The notes beneath the pieces are model-generated. The model did not search any database. It was given only the letters and a program-made list of their open reading frames with translations, and had not been told where the DNA came from. The position numbers and the translations under genes are program-made. This document shows positions 13,082 to 34,815 of a DNA stretch of 37,135 nucleotides, piece by piece. The first letter of the stretch is position 1. Every line of letters starts with the position of its first letter. The DNA is taken from the NCBI GenBank assembly GCA_949291655.1, contig CASEWT010000001.1, positions 85,709-122,843 of the forward strand, written 5' to 3'. The DNA is from an uncultured Bacillota bacterium. Lineage in GTDB: Bacteria > Bacillota_I > Bacilli_A > RFN20 > CAG-826.

Positions 13082-14515
13082 ATGAAACATGTGCCGTGGC
13101 TGAAGAAAGAGAATGCCCTATCGCTGGTGGGTGCTTTCCTTTCCCTTCTTTTGGCTTTTTCCTTCGGGGAAAGGCTCCTCGTCAGCGTCGTCGGGATGAT
13201 GCTCCTCGCCGTCTCCATCTTGATGTTCCTTTCCTTGGGCCGAAAGAAGAGCAAGGCGGAAAGGAAATCCTTCTGGCTCTATGCCGGTCCGCTCCTTGTC
13301 TTTTTCGCGGCTATCTCGCTCGGGGTCTTTGCCATCAATAGTTATGGCGACGCCTTTTCCGGGGTCGTTTCGGGTCTCCTTTCCCTCATGGGCCTTGCCG
13401 GTTCCTTCTTCTTCGGTCTTGCGGCCAAGGAAGAAAGCAAACTCGACCCCTGGTTCTTTGTCTATGCCGTCCTCGGCGGCCTAGCTCTTCTTGTTTTGGT
13501 TAGTTGGCTCTCGACGATGATCCTTTATGGGCCTTGGCACACCCTTATCTACCGCTGGAAGCAATACTACGTAAACGGAGTCGCCTACCCGATCGACGAG
13601 GAAGTCGTCTTCCTTCTTGGGACGGCGATGAGTCGGGTTTCGAAAGAGTACGCCGGAAGCTTCAGCACCGTCCTCGCGGCGGCCGGAGCCGGGACGATGT
13701 TCGTTGATTTCCGTAAGGAGAAGGCCAAAGGAATCTTCTTGTCTGTCATTGGCACGATCGGCCTCCTTTTCATCGTGACCGTTCCCCTTATCGAGGCCCT
13801 CGTTGTCGCGGCATTGGTCTATTTAGCTGCCCTCGGCCTTCGCTTTGCCCGTTTCAAAGAGGCGCCGCCGCGGTGGTTGAAGATTGCCTCGGTCGCGGTG
13901 ATGGGAATCGTCGTTTTGGTCGCGGCCGTCTATTTCGGGATCGTTTTGTCCAACGAGACTTCTCTATTTTCCAGCGGGATTTTGCGGAAGCTTTTCAACA
14001 ACACCCGTTGGACCAAGTGCATTAACGACATCATATCGGCTACCTTCTACCACGACGGGTCGGCGAGCTTCCTCTCGCTTCTTTTCGGGATGAATCCCTA
14101 TTATCAAAGCGGATCTTCTCTCTACTACAATTCCTCCCTTTGGTCGGGGACCGCTTGGATCAATTCCGGCCTTCAGACTTTCGAGATTGTCCCCTTCATG
14201 GAAGGCGGGCTCGTGGGCTTCCTCTCTTTCCTCGTCGTTTTCTTCTCGACCATCGTCCTTCTTTACCGCTTGCTTCACGATGAGAGGCGAAGTCCCTTTG
14301 CCGCGTGCGTGAGCATGGTCTTCCTTGCCTACTTCGTTTACATGACTTTCTTCATGGACATGACGCCGTACGTGGCCAAAGGCGATAGCCAGACCTATGT
14401 TTCGCCCTTTGGAGGAAATGCCCTCTTTGCCGTGCTTCTCCTCCTTCTAGGCCTCGGCTATCGGCCCTTGTATTTCCGGAAGGCCCTTGCGGTCGAAGGA
14501 GGGAGAAATGACTAA
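13082..14515 (+). CDS. polytopic membrane protein, O-antigen polymerase/ligase-like
   Basis: 477 aa with about 10-12 hydrophobic segments. A long, less hydrophobic segment follows roughly residue 290 (NETSLFSSGILRKLFNNTRW to SGLQTFEIVPFMEGGLVGFLSF), ending in the small-residue/Gly motif seen before a late membrane helix in Wzy polymerases and WaaL ligases. No enzyme motif is strict in this family, so the call rests on topology and on the neighbouring glycosyltransferases. Its 3' end overlaps the lipoprotein gene by 8 bases, so the two are probably translated together. Confidence 0.55.
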   Translation: MKHVPWLKKENALSLVGAFLSLLLAFSFGERLLVSVVGMMLLAVSILMFLSLGRKKSKAERKSFWLYAGPLLVFFAAISLGVFAINSYGDAFSGVVSGLLSLMGLAGSFFFGLAAKEESKLDPWFFVYAVLGGLALLVLVSWLSTMILYGPWHTLIYRWKQYYVNGVAYPIDEEVVFLLGTAMSRVSKEYAGSFSTVLAAAGAGTMFVDFRKEKAKGIFLSVIGTIGLLFIVTVPLIEALVVAALVYLAALGLRFARFKEAPPRWLKIASVAVMGIVVLVAAVYFGIVLSNETSLFSSGILRKLFNNTRWTKCINDIISATFYHDGSASFLSLLFGMNPYYQSGSSLYYNSSLWSGTAWINSGLQTFEIVPFMEGGLVGFLSFLVVFFSTIVLLYRLLHDERRSPFAACVSMVFLAYFVYMTFFMDMTPYVAKGDSQTYVSPFGGNALFAVLLLLLGLGYRPLYFRKALAVEGGRND

Positions 14516-27926: not shown

Positions 27927-28369
27927 TCAGAAAGGCCACCATTGAGGACGTCGACGCGATCGCCGAGGTCGAAAAGGCGGCTTTCCCGAAGGGGGCTTGG
28001 CCGCGGAAAGCCATCCTCGCCGAGTTCACCGAGAACGAGCTCTCGGAAATCTATGTCGACGTCGAGGACGGGAAGATCGTCGCCTGGCTCGACTTCATGA
28101 TCACCTTCAACTCGGCGACGGTCATGGCCCTCGGGGTCCTTCCGGAATACCGGAAGCGGGGGATTGCCACTTCCCTCATGAAGAAGATGGAGGAAGTCTG
28201 CCGGGCTCAAGAGGAAACGGTGGAATGGATTACCCTCGAAGTGCGGGAATCCAACGAAGAAGCCATCGCTCTCTACCGAAAGCTCGGCTATGCCTACGTC
28301 ACCAAGAAGGTGGCTTATTACGAGGACGGGGAAGACGCCCTCTATCTGATAAGGAGCCTCATATCATGA
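27923..28369 (+). CDS. rimI: ribosomal protein S18-alanine N-acetyltransferase-like GNAT protein
   Basis: 148 aa, GNAT fold. The acetyl-CoA loop is EYRKRGIATSLMKKMEEV, preceded by VMALGVLPEYR and followed by ITLEVRESNEEAIALYRKLGYAYV, as in RimI proteins. GTG start overlapping the tsaB stop (GTGA). RimI commonly lies between tsaB and tsaD in Firmicutes, which supports the name over a generic GNAT call. Confidence 0.9.
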   Translation: MIRKATIEDVDAIAEVEKAAFPKGAWPRKAILAEFTENELSEIYVDVEDGKIVAWLDFMITFNSATVMALGVLPEYRKRGIATSLMKKMEEVCRAQEETVEWITLEVRESNEEAIALYRKLGYAYVTKKVAYYEDGEDALYLIRSLIS

Positions 28370-29397
28370 GCATCATTCTCGGAATCGAAAGTAGCTGCGA
28401 CGAAACGGCCGCGGCCCTCACCAAGGACGGCAAGCTCCTTGCAAACGTCATTTCCTCGCAAGCCGACATCCACGCCAAGTACGGCGGCGTCATGCCGGAA
28501 GTCGCGAGCCGCCTCCACGTCGAAAACATCGGGGTCGTCCTCAAGGAGACGATGGAAAAAGCCGGGATCGGCTACGAGGAACTCGATGCTATCGCCTTCA
28601 CCCGGGGGCCCGGCCTCATCGGATCCCTCCACGCCGGAGTCGAAGCGGCCAAGGCGCTGGCTCTCCTCTATAAGAAACCGCTTGTTCCGGTTCACCATTT
28701 GGCCGGGCACATCTATGCCAACGAATACGTCGATTCCTTCTCCTTTCCGCTTCTTGCGGTCGTCGTCTCGGGCGGCAACACCGAGCTCGTCCTCATGGAA
28801 AGGGACCTCGACTTCAAGGTCATCGGGGAAACGAAGGACGACGCGGTCGGGGAAAGCTTCGACAAAGTCGCCCGTATCGTCGGCCTCCCTTACCCCGGCG
28901 GCCTTCCGATCGACCTTCACGCCCAGAAAGGGAAGCCGGTTTACGACTTTCCGGTCCAGAAACTACACCATGTCCCGGGAACCGAGAAATATGATTATTC
29001 CTTCTCCTATTCCGGCCTCAAGACGGCCGTCCTCAACTTCGTCGAGCATAAGCGGGCGAAAGGCGAGTCCTATGACCTCGACGACCTCTGCGCTTCCTTT
29101 ACGAAAGCCGCGATCGACCCAATCGTCGAGCGAATGAAGGCTGCGGCTAAGGAATATCATGTCAAGCAGGTTGTCCTCGCTGGCGGGGTCAGCGCGAACT
29201 CCTACCTCCGGAGCGAAGCGGCCAAGGCTCTCGAGGGAACGGGCATTCATCTCACCATCCCACCCCTTTGGTGCACGACCGACAACGCGGCCATGATTGC
29301 CAAGGTTGGGGAAAAGCTTTTCGCCTCCGGCATTACCTGCTCCCTTGATGTCGACGTCGACCCGAACTGGCAAATCGAGGATTTCAAGGAGTTCTGA
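28366..29397 (+). CDS. tsaD: tRNA N6-adenosine threonylcarbamoyltransferase TsaD
   Basis: 343 aa, the catalytic subunit of t6A synthesis, a metal-dependent ASKHA protein. MSIILGIESSCDETAAAL, the HHLAGHIYANEY metal ligands, VVVSGGNTELVLME, DDAVGESFDKVARIVGLPYPGG and VLAGGVSANSYLR are all present. Long upstream frames are shadows of rimI. ATG 28366 overlaps the rimI stop by 4 bases and has AAGGAG 9 bases before it. Last gene of the operon. Confidence 0.97.
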   Translation: MSIILGIESSCDETAAALTKDGKLLANVISSQADIHAKYGGVMPEVASRLHVENIGVVLKETMEKAGIGYEELDAIAFTRGPGLIGSLHAGVEAAKALALLYKKPLVPVHHLAGHIYANEYVDSFSFPLLAVVVSGGNTELVLMERDLDFKVIGETKDDAVGESFDKVARIVGLPYPGGLPIDLHAQKGKPVYDFPVQKLHHVPGTEKYDYSFSYSGLKTAVLNFVEHKRAKGESYDLDDLCASFTKAAIDPIVERMKAAAKEYHVKQVVLAGGVSANSYLRSEAAKALEGTGIHLTIPPLWCTTDNAAMIAKVGEKLFASGITCSLDVDVDPNWQIEDFKEF

Positions 29398-29408
29398 AGG
29401 ACTCCTTT

Positions 29409-29435
29409 CCTTTTGCCGCAAAAGGGGCATTTTTT
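29409..29435 (+). terminator. intrinsic terminator of the t6A operon
   Basis: CCTTTTG (29409-29415), loop CCG, CAAAAGG (29419-29425), then GGCA and six T. Confidence 0.85.
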
Positions 29436-29469
29436 GTCGTTTCGACCTGCCTAAATCCTTTTTCTTAAA

Positions 29470-29524
29470 AATCTTTCGAAAGAAAAATGGCCTTTTCGAA
29501 AAGAAAAACCAAATTTCGAAAAGA
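29470..29524 (+). repeat. upstream array of three TTTCGAAA repeats
   Basis: Palindromic TTTCGAAA cores centred on 29477/78, 29497/98 and 29517/18, an exact 20-base period. The cores are followed by AGAAAAA in the first two copies. The third overlaps where the -35 of the next gene should be. Bases 29470-29508 are identical to 30974-31012 beyond the gene. Confidence 0.9.
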
Positions 29525-29540
29525 TTATTCCGTTTTTTGT

Positions 29541-29546
29541 TATAAT
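29541..29546 (+). promoter_or_regulatory. promoter -10 of the AlbA_2 regulator gene
   Basis: Perfect TATAAT. The -35 position (about 29518-29523) lies within the third TTTCGAAA repeat, so a protein on the array would block or contact RNA polymerase. Confidence 0.7.
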
Positions 29547-29563
29547 TAAGCCGGAGGAAGGTT

Positions 29564-30970
29564 ATGTTTGAAGATTTAAGAGAAAGCGAAAATGTTGAAT
29601 TCAAGGAGGCGTCTACGTCGAAAGTTCCTGCTTCTTTTTGGGAAACATACTCCTCCTTTGCCAATACTTCGGGGGGAACCATTTATCTAGGGATTAACGA
29701 AAAGAAGCCTCATAACGAATTAGTGGGGGTCGAAAATGCCGCCCAGATGGTTAAGGACATTTTTGATACGGCAAACATTCCAGCCAAGGTTTCGCGGAAT
29801 GTCTTGAAAAGCGAGTCGGTCAAAGTGGTGACGGTCGACGGACACGACATCATCGTGGTCGTCGTGCCCGAGTGCCCAAAGAATGAAAAACCAATTTACC
29901 TGAATGGAAACCCTGCCCTTTGTTATCGGCGGGATGGGATGGTAGACCACCGAATGAGCTTTCGGGAAGCTCTTGGGTTGTTTTACTATTCCGCTCGCAT
30001 TGAAGAAGGAGGGCGCCCGAATCAAAATGGCGTACTCTTCGATGATCTCGATAAGGGTACCCTTTCCCGATACCGGTCGCTCTACGACCGTCTTTTCCCA
30101 AACAACTTTTTCAAGGAATATTCGCTTGAGGATTTCTGTTCGAGCCTCGGCATCACCCGAAAGACTCCGGATGGATACGTGCCTACGAATGACGCCATCT
30201 TGATGTTTGCTCCCTTTCGCCTGATTTCGCAGCTCTACCCTTCTTTCTACCTCGATTTCCAAGTTCGATCGGCGCATGACGAAAAGTGGGAACAGAGGAT
30301 TTCTTCCGATGACGGTCTCTGGTCGGGAAACGTTTTCGATTTCTATCTCAAGGTAAGCGAGGAATTATTCCACCGGCTTCCGTCCCCTTATCTCCTCCTC
30401 AACGGGGTTGACCGCGGGCACGATACGCTGGTGGAAGCCGTCATCGAAGCGGTGGTCAATAGCCTCAACAATGCCGATTTCCAGCGCGGCACCAGCGTCC
30501 GCATCGTCCTCGATGCCCGAGGCATTTCCATCGAGAACTCCGGACCGATGGGCGTCAATTTGGAAGAAGCCTTCGAAGGCGGGCATTCAAACCCCCGAAA
30601 CCGCGGAATCGTGTCTATTTTTCGCTCAGTCAAAATCGGCGACCTCGCAGGGACGGGGATTCGCAAGATGATTGCCGCTCTTCGCTCGCTCCAGATGAGC
30701 GAGCCGTTCTATCGAACCGACAATGTGAGTTTTGTCTCTGTCTACATTTCATTTGCCAAGGGCTTAAGCCAAGAAGAAAGGAAAGTCTTTGCCGCTCTTA
30801 ACAAGTTAGGAACGGCCGGCATCAAGGATATCGTTGAGGAAACTGGTTATAGCCGTTACCAAACCAATGCCGCCCTCATCAAGTTGATCAATGTGGGCTT
30901 AGTCCGGACCAATGGGGCCGCTACCAAGGGCCGAACCTATGCCATTGTTGGTCGCGTCGAAAGAATCTGA
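29564..30970 (+). CDS. AlbA_2 (Schlafen-type) DNA-binding regulator with ATPase-like and winged-helix domains
   Basis: 468 aa. The N-terminal AlbA_2 domain has ESENVEFKEA, FWETYSSFANTSGGTIYLGI and ALCYRRDGMVDHRMS. The middle has a GHKL-like HATPase_c_4 fold (VEAVIEAVVNSLNNADF and AGTGIRKMIAALR). The last ~60 residues are a winged helix (LGTAGIKDIVEETGYSRYQTNAALIKLINVGLV). Such proteins are usually called ATP-dependent or Schlafen-like transcriptional regulators; some occur in mobile islands. Strong GGAGGAAGG before the ATG. Codon use is somewhat more AT-rich than in the flanking operons. The gene is bracketed by identical repeats, which are the obvious candidate binding sites. That pairing is inference. 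Confidence 0.88.
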   Translation: MFEDLRESENVEFKEASTSKVPASFWETYSSFANTSGGTIYLGINEKKPHNELVGVENAAQMVKDIFDTANIPAKVSRNVLKSESVKVVTVDGHDIIVVVVPECPKNEKPIYLNGNPALCYRRDGMVDHRMSFREALGLFYYSARIEEGGRPNQNGVLFDDLDKGTLSRYRSLYDRLFPNNFFKEYSLEDFCSSLGITRKTPDGYVPTNDAILMFAPFRLISQLYPSFYLDFQVRSAHDEKWEQRISSDDGLWSGNVFDFYLKVSEELFHRLPSPYLLLNGVDRGHDTLVEAVIEAVVNSLNNADFQRGTSVRIVLDARGISIENSGPMGVNLEEAFEGGHSNPRNRGIVSIFRSVKIGDLAGTGIRKMIAALRSLQMSEPFYRTDNVSFVSVYISFAKGLSQEERKVFAALNKLGTAGIKDIVEETGYSRYQTNAALIKLINVGLVRTNGAATKGRTYAIVGRVERI

Positions 30971-30973
30971 CGG

Positions 30974-31052
30974 AATCTTTCGAAAGAAAAATGGCCTTTT
31001 CGAAAAGAAAAAGTGATCTTTCGATAAGAAAAACCAATGTTCCGAATAGATT
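30974..31052 (+). repeat. downstream array of four TTTCGAAA-like repeats
   Basis: Cores centred on 30981/82, 31001/02, 31022/23 and 31043/44, with a 20-21-base period. The first 39 bases copy the upstream array exactly; the third (TTTCGATA) and fourth (TTCCGAAT) have drifted. It starts 3 bases after the regulator stop and ends ~40 bases before the asnS promoter. Confidence 0.85.
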
Positions 31053-31094
31053 CTTTTTCTTCCGATCCCGAATGGCAAACGCCATCGCATGCTC

Positions 31095-31100
31095 TACAAT
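31095..31100 (+). promoter_or_regulatory. promoter -10 of asnS
   Basis: TACAAT, 27 bases before ATG 31128, with AAGGAG at 31115-31120 in the leader. No clear -35. Confidence 0.5.
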
Positions 31101-31127
31101 ATCGGGGCAACCGCAAGGAGTGGCGAT

Positions 31128-32498
31128 ATGTCCAAGAAACTGACGGTCCGGGACCTCTATGAGCTTTACGCCCAAGCCCCGGACGAACTTACGAAGGAAG
31201 AATGCGTTGTCGACGGCTGGATCAGGACCAACCGCGACAACGGGAAAATCGGCTTCATCGAGCTTCATGACGGGACGGTCTTTAAGGGCGTCCAGATCGT
31301 CTATGGGGAAGGAACCGGCTATGAGCGCTTGAAGACGGCCGCGGCCATCGAGGTTACCGGCGAGCTGCGCCTTACCCCCGAGGCCAAGCAGCCTTTTGAG
31401 ATCCACACCCGGAAGATCGACCTCATTGGGGACGTCGACGAGGATTACCCCCTTCAGAAGAAGCGCGCCTCGTTCGAGTTCCTCCGCGACATCGCCTATC
31501 TTCGCCCCCGGGCCAACACCTTCCAGGCTCTCTACCGGGTCCGTTCGGTCCTCGCGATGAACATCCATCGCTATTTCCAGGACCGCGGCTTCGTCTATGT
31601 CCATACCCCGGAGATTACCTCAAACGACGCCGAAGGGGCCGGGCAGGTCTTTTCCGTCGTGACCGATGCCAAGGATCCCTATAAGGACTTTTTCGGGCGG
31701 AAAGCCTCCCTCACCGTTTCTGGCCAGCTCCACGTCGAGGCCTTTGCCCTCGCCTTCAAGGATGTCTATACCTTCGGCCCGACCTTCCGGGCCGAGAAGA
31801 GCAACACCCCGCGCCACGCGAGCGAATTCTGGATGATCGAGCCGGAAATCGCCTTTGCCCACCTGAGCGACGACATGGACCTCATCGAGGATTTCCTCAA
31901 ATACCTCATCCGGGAAACGCTCTCCCGCTGCCCCGATGAGATGGCCTTCTTCGACAAGTTCATCCAGCCGGGACTCCTCGAGAAGCTGAAGCACGTCGAG
32001 GAAACGCCCTTCCAGAGGATGACCTACACCGAAGCCGTCTCGCGCCTCGAAGAGGCCGTGCGGGCCGGGCATAAGTTCGAATATGACGACATCAAGTGGG
32101 GAATGGACCTCCAGTCCGAGCATGAACGCTATCTCACCGAAAAAGTCGTCGGAGGACCGCTTTTCCTCATCGACTACCCAAAGGAAATCAAGGCGTTCTA
32201 CATGAAGGAAAACGACGATGGGAAGACGGTTGCCGCCTGCGACCTCCTCGTCCCGGGCGAAGGGGAAATCGTCGGGGGATCCGAACGCGAGGTCCGCCCT
32301 GAGGTCCTCAAGGCCAAGATGGAGAAAAACGGCAACTTCGAAGGGCTCGAGTGGTATTACAACCTTCGCCGCTTCGGGGGCTGCCCCCATGCCGGCTTCG
32401 GCCTCGGCTTCGACCGCTTCCTCATGTACCTCACCGGCATCGCGAACATCCGCGACACCGAGCCCTACCCGCGGACGGCCAATGCCCTCAAGTACTAG
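31128..32498 (+). CDS. asnS: asparaginyl-tRNA synthetase
   Basis: Charges tRNA-Asn; class IIb synthetase, 456 aa, normal length. The N-terminal OB-fold anticodon-binding domain has VVDGWIRTNRDNGKIGFIELHDGT. The catalytic domain has motif 2 FGPTFRAEKSNTPRHASEFWMIEPE and motif 3 HAGFGLGFDRFLMYLTGI. The Asn-type features EITSNDAEGAGQVFSV and YPKEIKAFYMKENDDGKTVAACDLLVPG separate it from AspRS. ATG 31128 is set by AAGGAG; the frame is open 13 codons further but lies in the promoter. Confidence 0.97.
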   Translation: MSKKLTVRDLYELYAQAPDELTKEECVVDGWIRTNRDNGKIGFIELHDGTVFKGVQIVYGEGTGYERLKTAAAIEVTGELRLTPEAKQPFEIHTRKIDLIGDVDEDYPLQKKRASFEFLRDIAYLRPRANTFQALYRVRSVLAMNIHRYFQDRGFVYVHTPEITSNDAEGAGQVFSVVTDAKDPYKDFFGRKASLTVSGQLHVEAFALAFKDVYTFGPTFRAEKSNTPRHASEFWMIEPEIAFAHLSDDMDLIEDFLKYLIRETLSRCPDEMAFFDKFIQPGLLEKLKHVEETPFQRMTYTEAVSRLEEAVRAGHKFEYDDIKWGMDLQSEHERYLTEKVVGGPLFLIDYPKEIKAFYMKENDDGKTVAACDLLVPGEGEIVGGSEREVRPEVLKAKMEKNGNFEGLEWYYNLRRFGGCPHAGFGLGFDRFLMYLTGIANIRDTEPYPRTANALKY

Positions 32499-32512
32499 GG
32501 GAGGAGTTTGAA

Positions 32513-32650
32513 ATGGAAGAAGAAAAGGAACGGAGCGAAGAAGAAAGAAAGGCGCTTTCCTATAAGCGCCTGACTTTTCTCGTCCTCGGAGCGTCTTTGG
32601 TCGTCTTCGGCCTCATCGTGGCCGAGGTCATCATGATTTTTGCTCGTTAG
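32513..32650 (+). CDS. 45-aa single-pass membrane protein
   Basis: A very acidic/basic N-terminus (MEEEKERSEEERKALSYKR) is followed by one membrane helix (LTFLVLGASLVVFGLIVAEV) and ends FAR. GGGGAGGAG lies 8 bases before the ATG, and the gene begins 14 bases after asnS, so it is probably cotranscribed. The last 20 bases overlap the tail of the convergent membrane-protein gene. No family recognised; the strong ribosome site and clean topology make it believable. Confidence 0.65.
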   Translation: MEEEKERSEEERKALSYKRLTFLVLGASLVVFGLIVAEVIMIFAR

Positions 32651-33341
32651 CGGAGGCTTGCTCCTCTTTGATTTCGGCCTTCGCCGCTTCGCTGGCGAGG
32701 GCCTTTTCCTTATCGCCTTTGAGGGCATCGTAGAAGTTGTAGCCCTCGAGGGTCTTCTCATAGACCGTATGCATCCGGCTCCTCAAGGTCAGGCAGCGCG
32801 AGAGGTAGGCCATGGAAGCGACGAGGTAATAGGTGAGGAAAATAAGGAACAGGGGAACGATGACGTAGGAGGCCCAATAGGAAGAATCGAGGTAGGGGGC
32901 GTGGATAAGAGGCGGCCACTCGTTGAGCAGGCGCATCCCCCAAAGGGTCACGTAGATGCTTTCCTCGTTCCAGTCGTAGACATAGAAGAGGGTGGAGAAG
33001 CGCTCGAAGTGATTGGCCGCCCATTCCCCGGAAATCGAGGAATAGACGAGGTAGAAGGCGAGAAGGAGCAAGCCGATGAGGATGGCCGGGCTCGCTTCCC
33101 TAACGAAGAGCTGGGCGTTTTTCTTCCGGCCGTATCTCTTCAAATGGTCGGGAGAGGAAATGACCCGGTAGACGACCGGGTCGTGGAGGAAGGAATCGAC
33201 CCGCTTCCCTTGCTTCTTGAAAAGGAGGCGGACACCCATCCCGATGAGGCCGACGAGAATGAAAAGGATGAGGAGGAAGATGAGGAAAATGATAAGAAGC
33301 CGGCGGTCGTTCTCGTTTAGGGTGATACCAACGTAAAACAT
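32631..33341 (-). CDS. membrane protein of unknown function
   Basis: 236 aa with about three membrane helices: LLIIFLIFLLILFILVGLIG, ILIGLLLLAFYLVYSSI and YVIVPLFLIFLTYYLVASMA. The C-terminal tail is charged (KGDKEKALASEAAKAEIKEEQ). Last gene of a three-gene minus-strand operon; its ATG overlaps the preceding stop by one base (TGATG). A GTG one codon earlier is also possible. No family recognised. Confidence 0.75.
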   Translation of the reverse strand: MFYVGITLNENDRRLLIIFLIFLLILFILVGLIGMGVRLLFKKQGKRVDSFLHDPVVYRVISSPDHLKRYGRKKNAQLFVREASPAILIGLLLLAFYLVYSSISGEWAANHFERFSTLFYVYDWNEESIYVTLWGMRLLNEWPPLIHAPYLDSSYWASYVIVPLFLIFLTYYLVASMAYLSRCLTLRSRMHTVYEKTLEGYNFYDALKGDKEKALASEAAKAEIKEEQASANEQKS

Positions 33342-33892: not shown

Positions 33893-34815
33893 GCTCTGTC
33901 CTTCATTTTAGGCTCTTGCCCTAAGTAGGGCAACGCGAGGGAAAGGAGGGAAAAGAGACCGACGGGGAGGAAGAAAACGGGAAGGAAGGCAAAGCCGTCT
34001 TTCCCGTCGGTCCCGCTGGCGAGGAAGGCAAAGAGGAAAAGGGCTCCGAACTCGAGGATCACGAGAAGGGCGTAAAGCCACCACGGGTTCCGCCGGACGG
34101 CGCCCGAAAGGCTGAGGAGGGTTAGAAGGAGAGCCATGGCCGCGAAAAGGAACGACCAGGCAAGGGAGGCCGCGCTTAAAGACAATGCCAGGGCCGAGAA
34201 GAGGAGGCCGAGGGCGATGAGGAGAAAGGAAGCCCACTTCCTCCTTGCCCCGTCATCGATGCCGATCCGCCTTGCAAGGTAAACGAGGAAGAAGGAGGAA
34301 AGCGATGTTCCGGCTGTCCCATAGGCAAAGAAGAAGGCCGGTACGAGGTCTCTTATCCCTTCGATCGACGATATCCCAAGCAAATCGAGGGCGAATTCAA
34401 CGAAATCGATGCCGGTAAGAGCCTTCGAAATCGGAAGGGAAAGATAGGCGCAGCCCATGTTGAGAAGCGAGGAGAGGAAGATGGCGAGGCCGAAGTCAAA
34501 GTTTCGGCCGAGGAAGAATCCGAGAAGGGCTCCGCTAAGGATGGCCGGGACGACGTAGAAAAGGCTCGAAGCGAGGTCGTGGAGCCCGGAGGCCACGGCG
34601 AGAAGGGAAGCTCCGACGACATAGACGGGCAGGTATTTCTTTTCCGCCAAGATGGCGGCCAGGGCCGAGACCGACGGGAGAAAGATCGTCGCGAATAAAG
34701 AAGCCAACGGGAAGAAAGAAAGAACAAGCGACAAAACGGCCTCGACCGCGGCGAGGACGGCAAGGAAGGCCACGTTCTGAGCTAGCCCCTTCCGGGGGAC
34801 GAAGATGTCTTTCAT
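33889..34815 (-). CDS. polytopic membrane protein, DUF2232/ECF S-component-like topology
   Basis: 308 aa, about 8-9 hydrophobic segments with few charged loops. The first half (AVEAVLSLVLSFFPLASLFAT, VVPAILSGALLGFFLGR) recalls YybS/DUF2232 or ECF substrate-binding subunits in layout, but there is no ECF signature I can point to, so this is only a topological comparison. First gene of the operon; a GATAAT box lies exactly 7 bases before its ATG. Confidence 0.6.
   Translation of the reverse strand: MKDIFVPRKGLAQNVAFLAVLAAVEAVLSLVLSFFPLASLFATIFLPSVSALAAILAEKKYLPVYVVGASLLAVASGLHDLASSLFYVVPAILSGALLGFFLGRNFDFGLAIFLSSLLNMGCAYLSLPISKALTGIDFVEFALDLLGISSIEGIRDLVPAFFFAYGTAGTSLSSFFLVYLARRIGIDDGARRKWASFLLIALGLLFSALALSLSAASLAWSFLFAAMALLLTLLSLSGAVRRNPWWLYALLVILEFGALFLFAFLASGTDGKDGFAFLPVFFLPVGLFSLLSLALPYLGQEPKMKDRA

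Follow-up and report, generated by a model that had tools for sequence, protein, structure and literature searches.

Phased direct-repeat arrays beside Schlafen-type genes in bacteria: a candidate self-repressing nuclease module

A gene for a Schlafen-type protein in an uncultured Bacillota bacterium lies between two arrays of helically phased direct repeats, and comparison with its homologs indicates that such arrays belong to the gene family as a whole, with a repeat unit that evidently differs from subtype to subtype. We consider it probable that the gene and its arrays make up a self-repressing, one-protein module, in which a Schlafen-type nuclease would be controlled through a cooperative phased operator and which would be lost by recombination between its arrays. 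The stretch of DNA analysed, throughout by computation, is referred to here as the window and is 37,135 nucleotides long.

The gene, its protein and the flanking arrays

The protein has three domains, located as follows.

29564..30970, + strand: gene of 468 aa, encoding SLFN_AlbA_2 (residues 7-126), HATPase_c_4 (311-391) and winged-helix (about 400-460) domains, from Pfam, the AlphaFold model and structure matches
29582..29701, + strand: stretch from E7 to E46, which includes the codons for E7, E12 and E46 as a putative nuclease triad, from the SLFN14 alignment, conservation and the Schlafen13 triad (PMC5862951)
30854..30892, + strand: recognition helix of the winged helix, residues 431-443, RYQTNAALIKLIN, from the secondary structure of the model

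The SLFN_AlbA_2 profile (PF04326) scores 51.9 bits against a gathering score of 25.3, and the HATPase_c_4 profile 37.1 bits against 26. The ExxxN of GHKL ATPases is present, with E295 and N299 conserved in all or nearly all homologs, and the C-terminal helix-turn-helix has a TrmB-like Pfam match. In structure searches with the AlphaFold model (pLDDT 78), residues 1-397 align to 3lmm (Z 20.7), the N-terminus matches 2kyy, SLFN14, SLFN13 and the tRNase domain of SAMD9, and residues from about 398 to 465 match winged-helix chains of the MarR type (Z 9.7-11.2). The closest solved structures, 3lmm (C. diphtheriae DIP2311) and 2kyy, both represent uncharacterised proteins.

The Schlafen RNase triad is E205, E210 and D248 in rat SLFN13 (PMC5862951). 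In the window protein E7, E12 and E46 align with the ES..VEF..GVDD of SLFN14, the third residue being Glu and not Asp, and the triad of three Glu is intact in 73 of the 81 homologs in which all three positions are aligned. Because the Schlafen triad positions are aligned and have been kept in homologs, the AlbA_2 domain is more likely to be a nuclease than a DNA binder, and the DNA binder of this protein is likely to be the winged helix. Both paralogs in the relative G569, L034 (same locus, G569:C5) and L083 (G569:C17), have lost the triad (KEE and RES) and have diverged N-terminal domains, while their C-termini and downstream arrays are retained. It is possible that they represent a repressor-only state; as neither has the triad, the nuclease is apparently not always needed.

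The neighbours with Pfam matches are tsaE, tsaB, tsaD and asnS, of which tsaD and asnS adjoin the gene directly, and three further open reading frames to position 34815 match nothing. A PADLOC scan of the gene and AsnS gave a weak match of the gene to pAgo (26.6 bits). Around the gene the repeats and the predicted promoter are arranged as follows.

29474..29528, + strand: upstream array, three direct units with cores at 29474, 29494 and 29514 (spacing 20, 20)
30978..31053, + strand: downstream array, four direct units with cores at 30978, 30998, 31019 and 31039 (spacing 20, 21, 20)
29470..29508, + strand: left copy of a 39-bp perfect direct repeat, opening with the inverted half-unit AATCTTTCGAAAG
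30974..31012, + strand: right copy of this repeat, identical to 29470-29508
29541..29546, + strand: probable -10 of the gene (TATAAT), from the sequence as part of a predicted promoter, with the third array unit just upstream

An initial sequence-only reading had described three cores upstream and four downstream of a single gene, spaced by 20-21 bases, and an identity of 39 bases between the two outer segments; its coordinates are correct and the identity was confirmed. It had also called the repeat palindromic, and here the repeat stands and the palindrome does not. The window unit is an asymmetric direct repeat, TTTCGAWAAGAAAAA, which runs in the same direction in both arrays, each of them headed by the inverted half-unit; the downstream cores at 31019 and 31039 are TTTCGATA and GTTCCGAA. 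The palindrome was rejected as the true site: diverged units (TTTCGATAAGAAAAA; TTTCGCAAAGAAAAA in L034) break it but retain the directional 15-mer, and the units of relatives are non-palindromic. Judged from these units, the palindrome in the window is incidental.

The window contains 8 copies of the motif TTTCGAAA, 5 of them inside the two arrays, where 2.9 would be expected (sd 1.7; a count of 8 was reached in 0 of 100 shuffles), and a search of the whole genome (1.26 Mb, 107 contigs) found the pair pattern TTTCGAAA-N12-TTTCGAAA in the window only. The third upstream copy had been thought to cover the -35 of the gene. Its position at 29514-29528 is the one expected of a -35 belonging to the TATAAT at 29541, but no good -35 hexamer is seen in it.

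Arrays across the family and the role of the winged helix

Close homologs had been expected to carry the same TTTCGAAA arrays. Homologs that belong to the same taxonomic family and are 30-42% identical lack them and have arrays of their own instead, so that TTTCGAAA is indeed absent but arrays are not, and the expectation had been wrongly framed. Phased arrays of unrelated sequence are present at homologs down to about 25-30% identity, with units such as TTAGATAGATTATT (L005), TTTCAGCAGATTATT (L006/L007), GAACAAGAATAAT (L008) and TTGGAAGAATAAT (L010), and with 11-bp forms such as TTGGAATAA (L084) and ATCGGCTACT (L057). Inverted heads are also seen: after the stop codon in L076/L083, TGATTCTTGCTC is the reverse complement of GAGCAAGAATCA, and in L006 the head TAATCTGCTGAAAA lies upstream of the gene. 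A second paralog in the window's own genome (C71) has a different array, of the AAGAATATT type. Of 224 family genomes, 3 contain the pattern GGAAGAATA-N11-GGAAGAATA, and they are exactly the carriers of the corresponding gene subtype.

The spacing of the repeats was analysed in 179 flanking regions from about 95 homologs by comparing the observed and expected numbers of regions with a repeated 10-mer at each lag. Peaks are found at lags 10-11 (14/2.2 and 20/2.5), at lags 20-22 (40/1.9, 23/1.8 and 13/2.1) and at lags 40-42 (14, 15 and 12 observed against about 1.8 expected), while lags 13-19 and 24-29 are near expectation. Array coverage of at least 30 bp was found in 49 of 155 homolog flanks as against 10 of 1332 control windows (p about 1e-41 by Fisher's test), 3 of 133 control windows that are mostly noncoding and none of the 23 flanks of long-form homologs (at least 560 aa), at thresholds chosen after the data had been seen and with flank counts that include related sequences more than once. 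At a looser cut of at least 20 bp, an array is present in 39 of the 52 clusters formed at 60% identity and at 56 of the 84 short-form homologs, about a third being without one. Among more distant homologs, four of the five whose ends could be delimited have upstream arrays. Most of the genomes surveyed are probably metagenome-assembled. Streptococcus satellite phages and plasmids of Staphylococcus aureus and Lactobacillus iners (one each) are among the named carriers, and a family search of viral contigs returned 0 matches with a single-protein query and 11 with an alignment query.

Some individual loci deserve description. The homologs L087 (G133:C1) and L088 (G081:C1) have no AlbA_2 domain; L087 retains a downstream array of the GAGCAAGAATA type, and L088 falls below the threshold though similar sequence is visible. 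In the Streptococcus satellite phages (L094, L095, L100 and L103) the homolog lies directly before the integrase, and 11-bp phased repeats are visible upstream. The neighbours of L166 (G564:C12) resemble, by eye from their translations, a KAP-type P-loop NTPase and an SMC/DUF2326-like ATPase, which suggests a defence island. A TPP riboswitch-like sequence (CTGAGAGGAACC...CCTGATCCCGGTAATGCGGGCGGAGG) was recognised by eye in the downstream flank of L006/L007.

A few pairs of homologs indicate which part of the protein the unit follows. Between L076 and L083 the N-domain stands at 53% and the C-domain at 93%, with a unit similarity of 0.88, and between the window protein and L034 the values are 52%, 89% and 0.55. 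Synonymous divergence between L076 and L083 falls from 2.1 over the first 150 codons to 0.04 over codons 241-395, and therefore at least this pair is chimeric. L090 and L125 differ at 40 positions in 481 aa, four of them within eight residues of the recognition helix (N442T, N444K, N448G and V449M), and the array unit TTTTTTAAGCAGAT became TTTTTTACCCAGAT. In these informative pairs the unit evidently follows the C-terminal winged helix and not the nuclease domain. The assignment rests on few pairs, because over all pairs the correlations with unit similarity are nearly equal for the N-terminal (0.65), middle (0.67) and C-terminal (0.69) parts. The earlier proposal that the protein coats the arrays and regulates its own gene thus gains support from the promoter-side arrays found family-wide and from the co-variation of unit and winged helix, although the AlbA_2 domain, which it had favoured as the binder, probably does not have that function.

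The proposed self-repression may be set out in steps. The winged helix would bind the asymmetric 15-bp unit and, because the units recur every one or two helical turns, protomers on neighbouring units would lie on the same side of the helix and their binding would be cooperative, so that the upstream array beside the promoter would hold expression low. Self-repression appears the best explanation because upstream arrays occupy promoter territory, their ends lying a median of 28 bp before the start codon among homologs. The AlbA_2 domain, with Glu-Glu-Glu in place of the Schlafen Glu-Glu-Asp RNase triad, would act as effector, with the GHKL-like ATPase in the middle position as the switch. The downstream array may have a role in DNA looping, may be a second operator or may be a by-product of unit duplication, as at L162 below; the homologs with a downstream array only (L041, L057, L089, L101 and L115) fit no simple operator.

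A different function of the same complex, with the array itself as the antitoxin, is conceivable though unlikely. A filament on the subtype-specific repeats would keep the protein inactive, and its stripping by phage takeover, by replication or by loss of the cassette or plasmid would free an RNA-cleaving Schlafen nuclease. Diversification of the units would then prevent cross-regulation among co-resident copies, for example the two in the window's genome.

Loss and movement of the unit

An empty site with a single array had been predicted, and one was found in a close relative: in G573 (locus L133, AsnS 98% identical) one array stands between tsaD and asnS and the gene is absent. The site matches window positions 28086-29524 and 30974-32999, with 56 bp shared, and the missing part is as follows.

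29470..30973 (equivalently 29509-31012), no strand: segment missing from the G573 empty site, one array copy and the gene

The gene is present at the same locus in G569 (AsnS 94%), and neither gene nor array is present in G024 and G572 (AsnS 82-84%). With the gene in the same position in the outgroup G569, the G573 site is best explained by loss. It is unlikely that the assembly created this site, since typical reads are longer than the repeat and the junction shows private substitutions. In G564 a solo array lies about 6.5 kb from an occupied one and has the same outer flanks, the two sites matching over 271 bp at 96% and 134 bp at 91% with 58 bp shared. As the same array flanks the gene on both sides in the window, ordinary recombination between the 39-bp repeats can remove the gene so that a single array remains, as in G573; identity over 39-58 bp is enough for ordinary homologous deletion, and direct-repeat recombination suffices to explain the deletion.

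Units have also come to lie at unrelated loci. A 1.67-kb unit is shared at 95% identity between such loci in two genera (L010 vs L069/L070), and L011, L073 and L074 share 96-99% identity between about -200 and +30..+79, beyond which their flanks are unrelated. Whole units have evidently been inherited, moved and lost as blocks, as far as can be judged from the sequences compared. Around the L008 gene a 268-bp direct repeat of 91% identity, made up of the 3' end of the gene and the array, lies on both sides (L162:11914-12179 and 13483-13748), left over from a tandem copy. Genomes of the genus g18 contain 5-14 copies each of a dispersed repeat, CCCGCATCGNGNNCCA (G109, G121, G500, G503 and G506; L011, L073, L074, L077, L018 and L125), which sometimes flanks single genes on both sides, Schlafen-gene homologs included; ARAGORN and Rfam identified no tRNA or Rfam RNA in it, and it may mark gene cassettes of another kind. 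A location of L011 and L077 at the 3' end of a tRNA or tmRNA was considered and dropped, ARAGORN and Rfam having found none.

These units could instead be mobile cassettes, with the arrays as recombination sites at which either the encoded protein or an integrase acting in trans excises and inserts the 1.5-1.7-kb unit. The junctions in G573 and G564, which fall exactly inside the array, near-identical units at unrelated loci and homologs adjoining integrase genes in satellite phages agree with it; yet the shared identity is long enough for ordinary homologous deletion, G569 makes G573 a probable loss, and another repeat, CCCGCATCGCGCTCCAC, flanks L011 and L077 and may be the true mobility signal there. 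Profile and structure searches of the protein found no recombinase or transposase domain, and no evidence of protein-catalysed recombination was found. Insertion sequences and transposons likewise are short units with repeats at both ends that are present or absent between relatives, but the window unit has direct and not inverted ends and matches no transposase profile, and its empty site keeps one whole repeat. We regard catalysed mobility as distinctly unlikely. The excisable cassette of the sequence-only reading is supported by the one-array empty site, the solo array and the units at unrelated loci; together with self-binding, which it had posed as the alternative, it is partly right, and the two are not exclusive.

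Relation to known systems and significance

The downstream array lies directly upstream of asnS and was retained in G573 after the gene had been lost, and it could be supposed to regulate asnS and so provide a link to tRNA charging, as the sequence-only reading had suggested. The promoter of asnS speaks against this.

31095..31100, + strand: probable -10 of asnS (TACAAT), predicted, outside (downstream of) the array

The TGGCAA...TACAAT block to which it belongs is conserved in the array-free G024, and the arrays of homologs adjoin unrelated genes. Control of asnS is thus very unlikely.

ParR/parC, TubR/tubC and the omega repressor are systems in which small helix-turn-helix proteins act cooperatively on phased direct repeats and repress their own promoters; the iterons are of 11 bp in R1 parC and of 20 bp in pSK41. 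The window module, with phased direct repeats at helical multiples beside what is probably its own promoter, would belong with this class of autorepressors. It differs from these systems in its nuclease and ATPase domains, in arrays that flank the gene on both sides and in having no motor partner, since ParM, TubZ or ParA genes are not among the neighbours with Pfam matches, which are housekeeping genes. The iteron periods of one or two turns, a weak resemblance of the winged helix to TubR (4asn) and the location of L093 on an L. iners plasmid near ParM/StbA have nonetheless some bearing on the idea that the protein mainly organises or segregates DNA in a centromere-like manner, with autoregulation secondary; as most of the homologs observed are chromosomal and have 3-6 units, we hold this to be most improbable. 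At L093 itself (plasmid pC0094A1) the arrays are of 11 bp and could serve the partition system too. The idea of ordinary repeats, tandem or of low complexity, that lie near the family by chance in AT-rich intergenic DNA, with counts inflated by related sequences, can be virtually dismissed, for the arrays are rare in dinucleotide shuffles and in control windows from the same loci, peak at helical multiples only, differ in unit sequence between unrelated clusters and are missing from long-form homologs.

Self-repression can also be placed among published relatives of the gene. The BREX-linked COG2865/SLFN_AlbA_2 protein, with a Schlafen RNase, a minimal histidine-kinase ATPase and a winged helix-turn-helix, has the same three-domain architecture, with which the window protein also shares the Schlafen triad positions (PMC12839542); 'autoregul' and 'operator' do not appear in its main text and flanking arrays are not described in the passages found, and the window gene differs in sitting between housekeeping genes. 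An Xre-COG2865 toxin-antitoxin family has been predicted (PMC5308263), in which the COG2865 protein is a candidate member of the pair; the window gene has no adjacent Xre partner, its DNA-binding domain being fused, and it has arrays. COG2865 is not named in the main text of PMC2701414. Within the literature searched, where preprints and subscription journals were thinly covered, we found no arrays at COG2865/AlbA_2 genes, and neither the combination of array and gene nor its diversification nor solo-array remnants.

COG2865/AlbA_2 proteins are widespread and are tied to defence islands and satellite phages, and in the literature searched their DNA target is not described. If the proposed self-repression is correct, this target could be read beside the gene, and recombination between arrays would explain how the gene is lost with a solo array left as a fossil. 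The family would then provide dozens of natural protein-operator pairs of different specificities, some of them a few recognition-helix residues apart, and the code of DNA recognition and the control of bacterial Schlafen nucleases would become directly testable.
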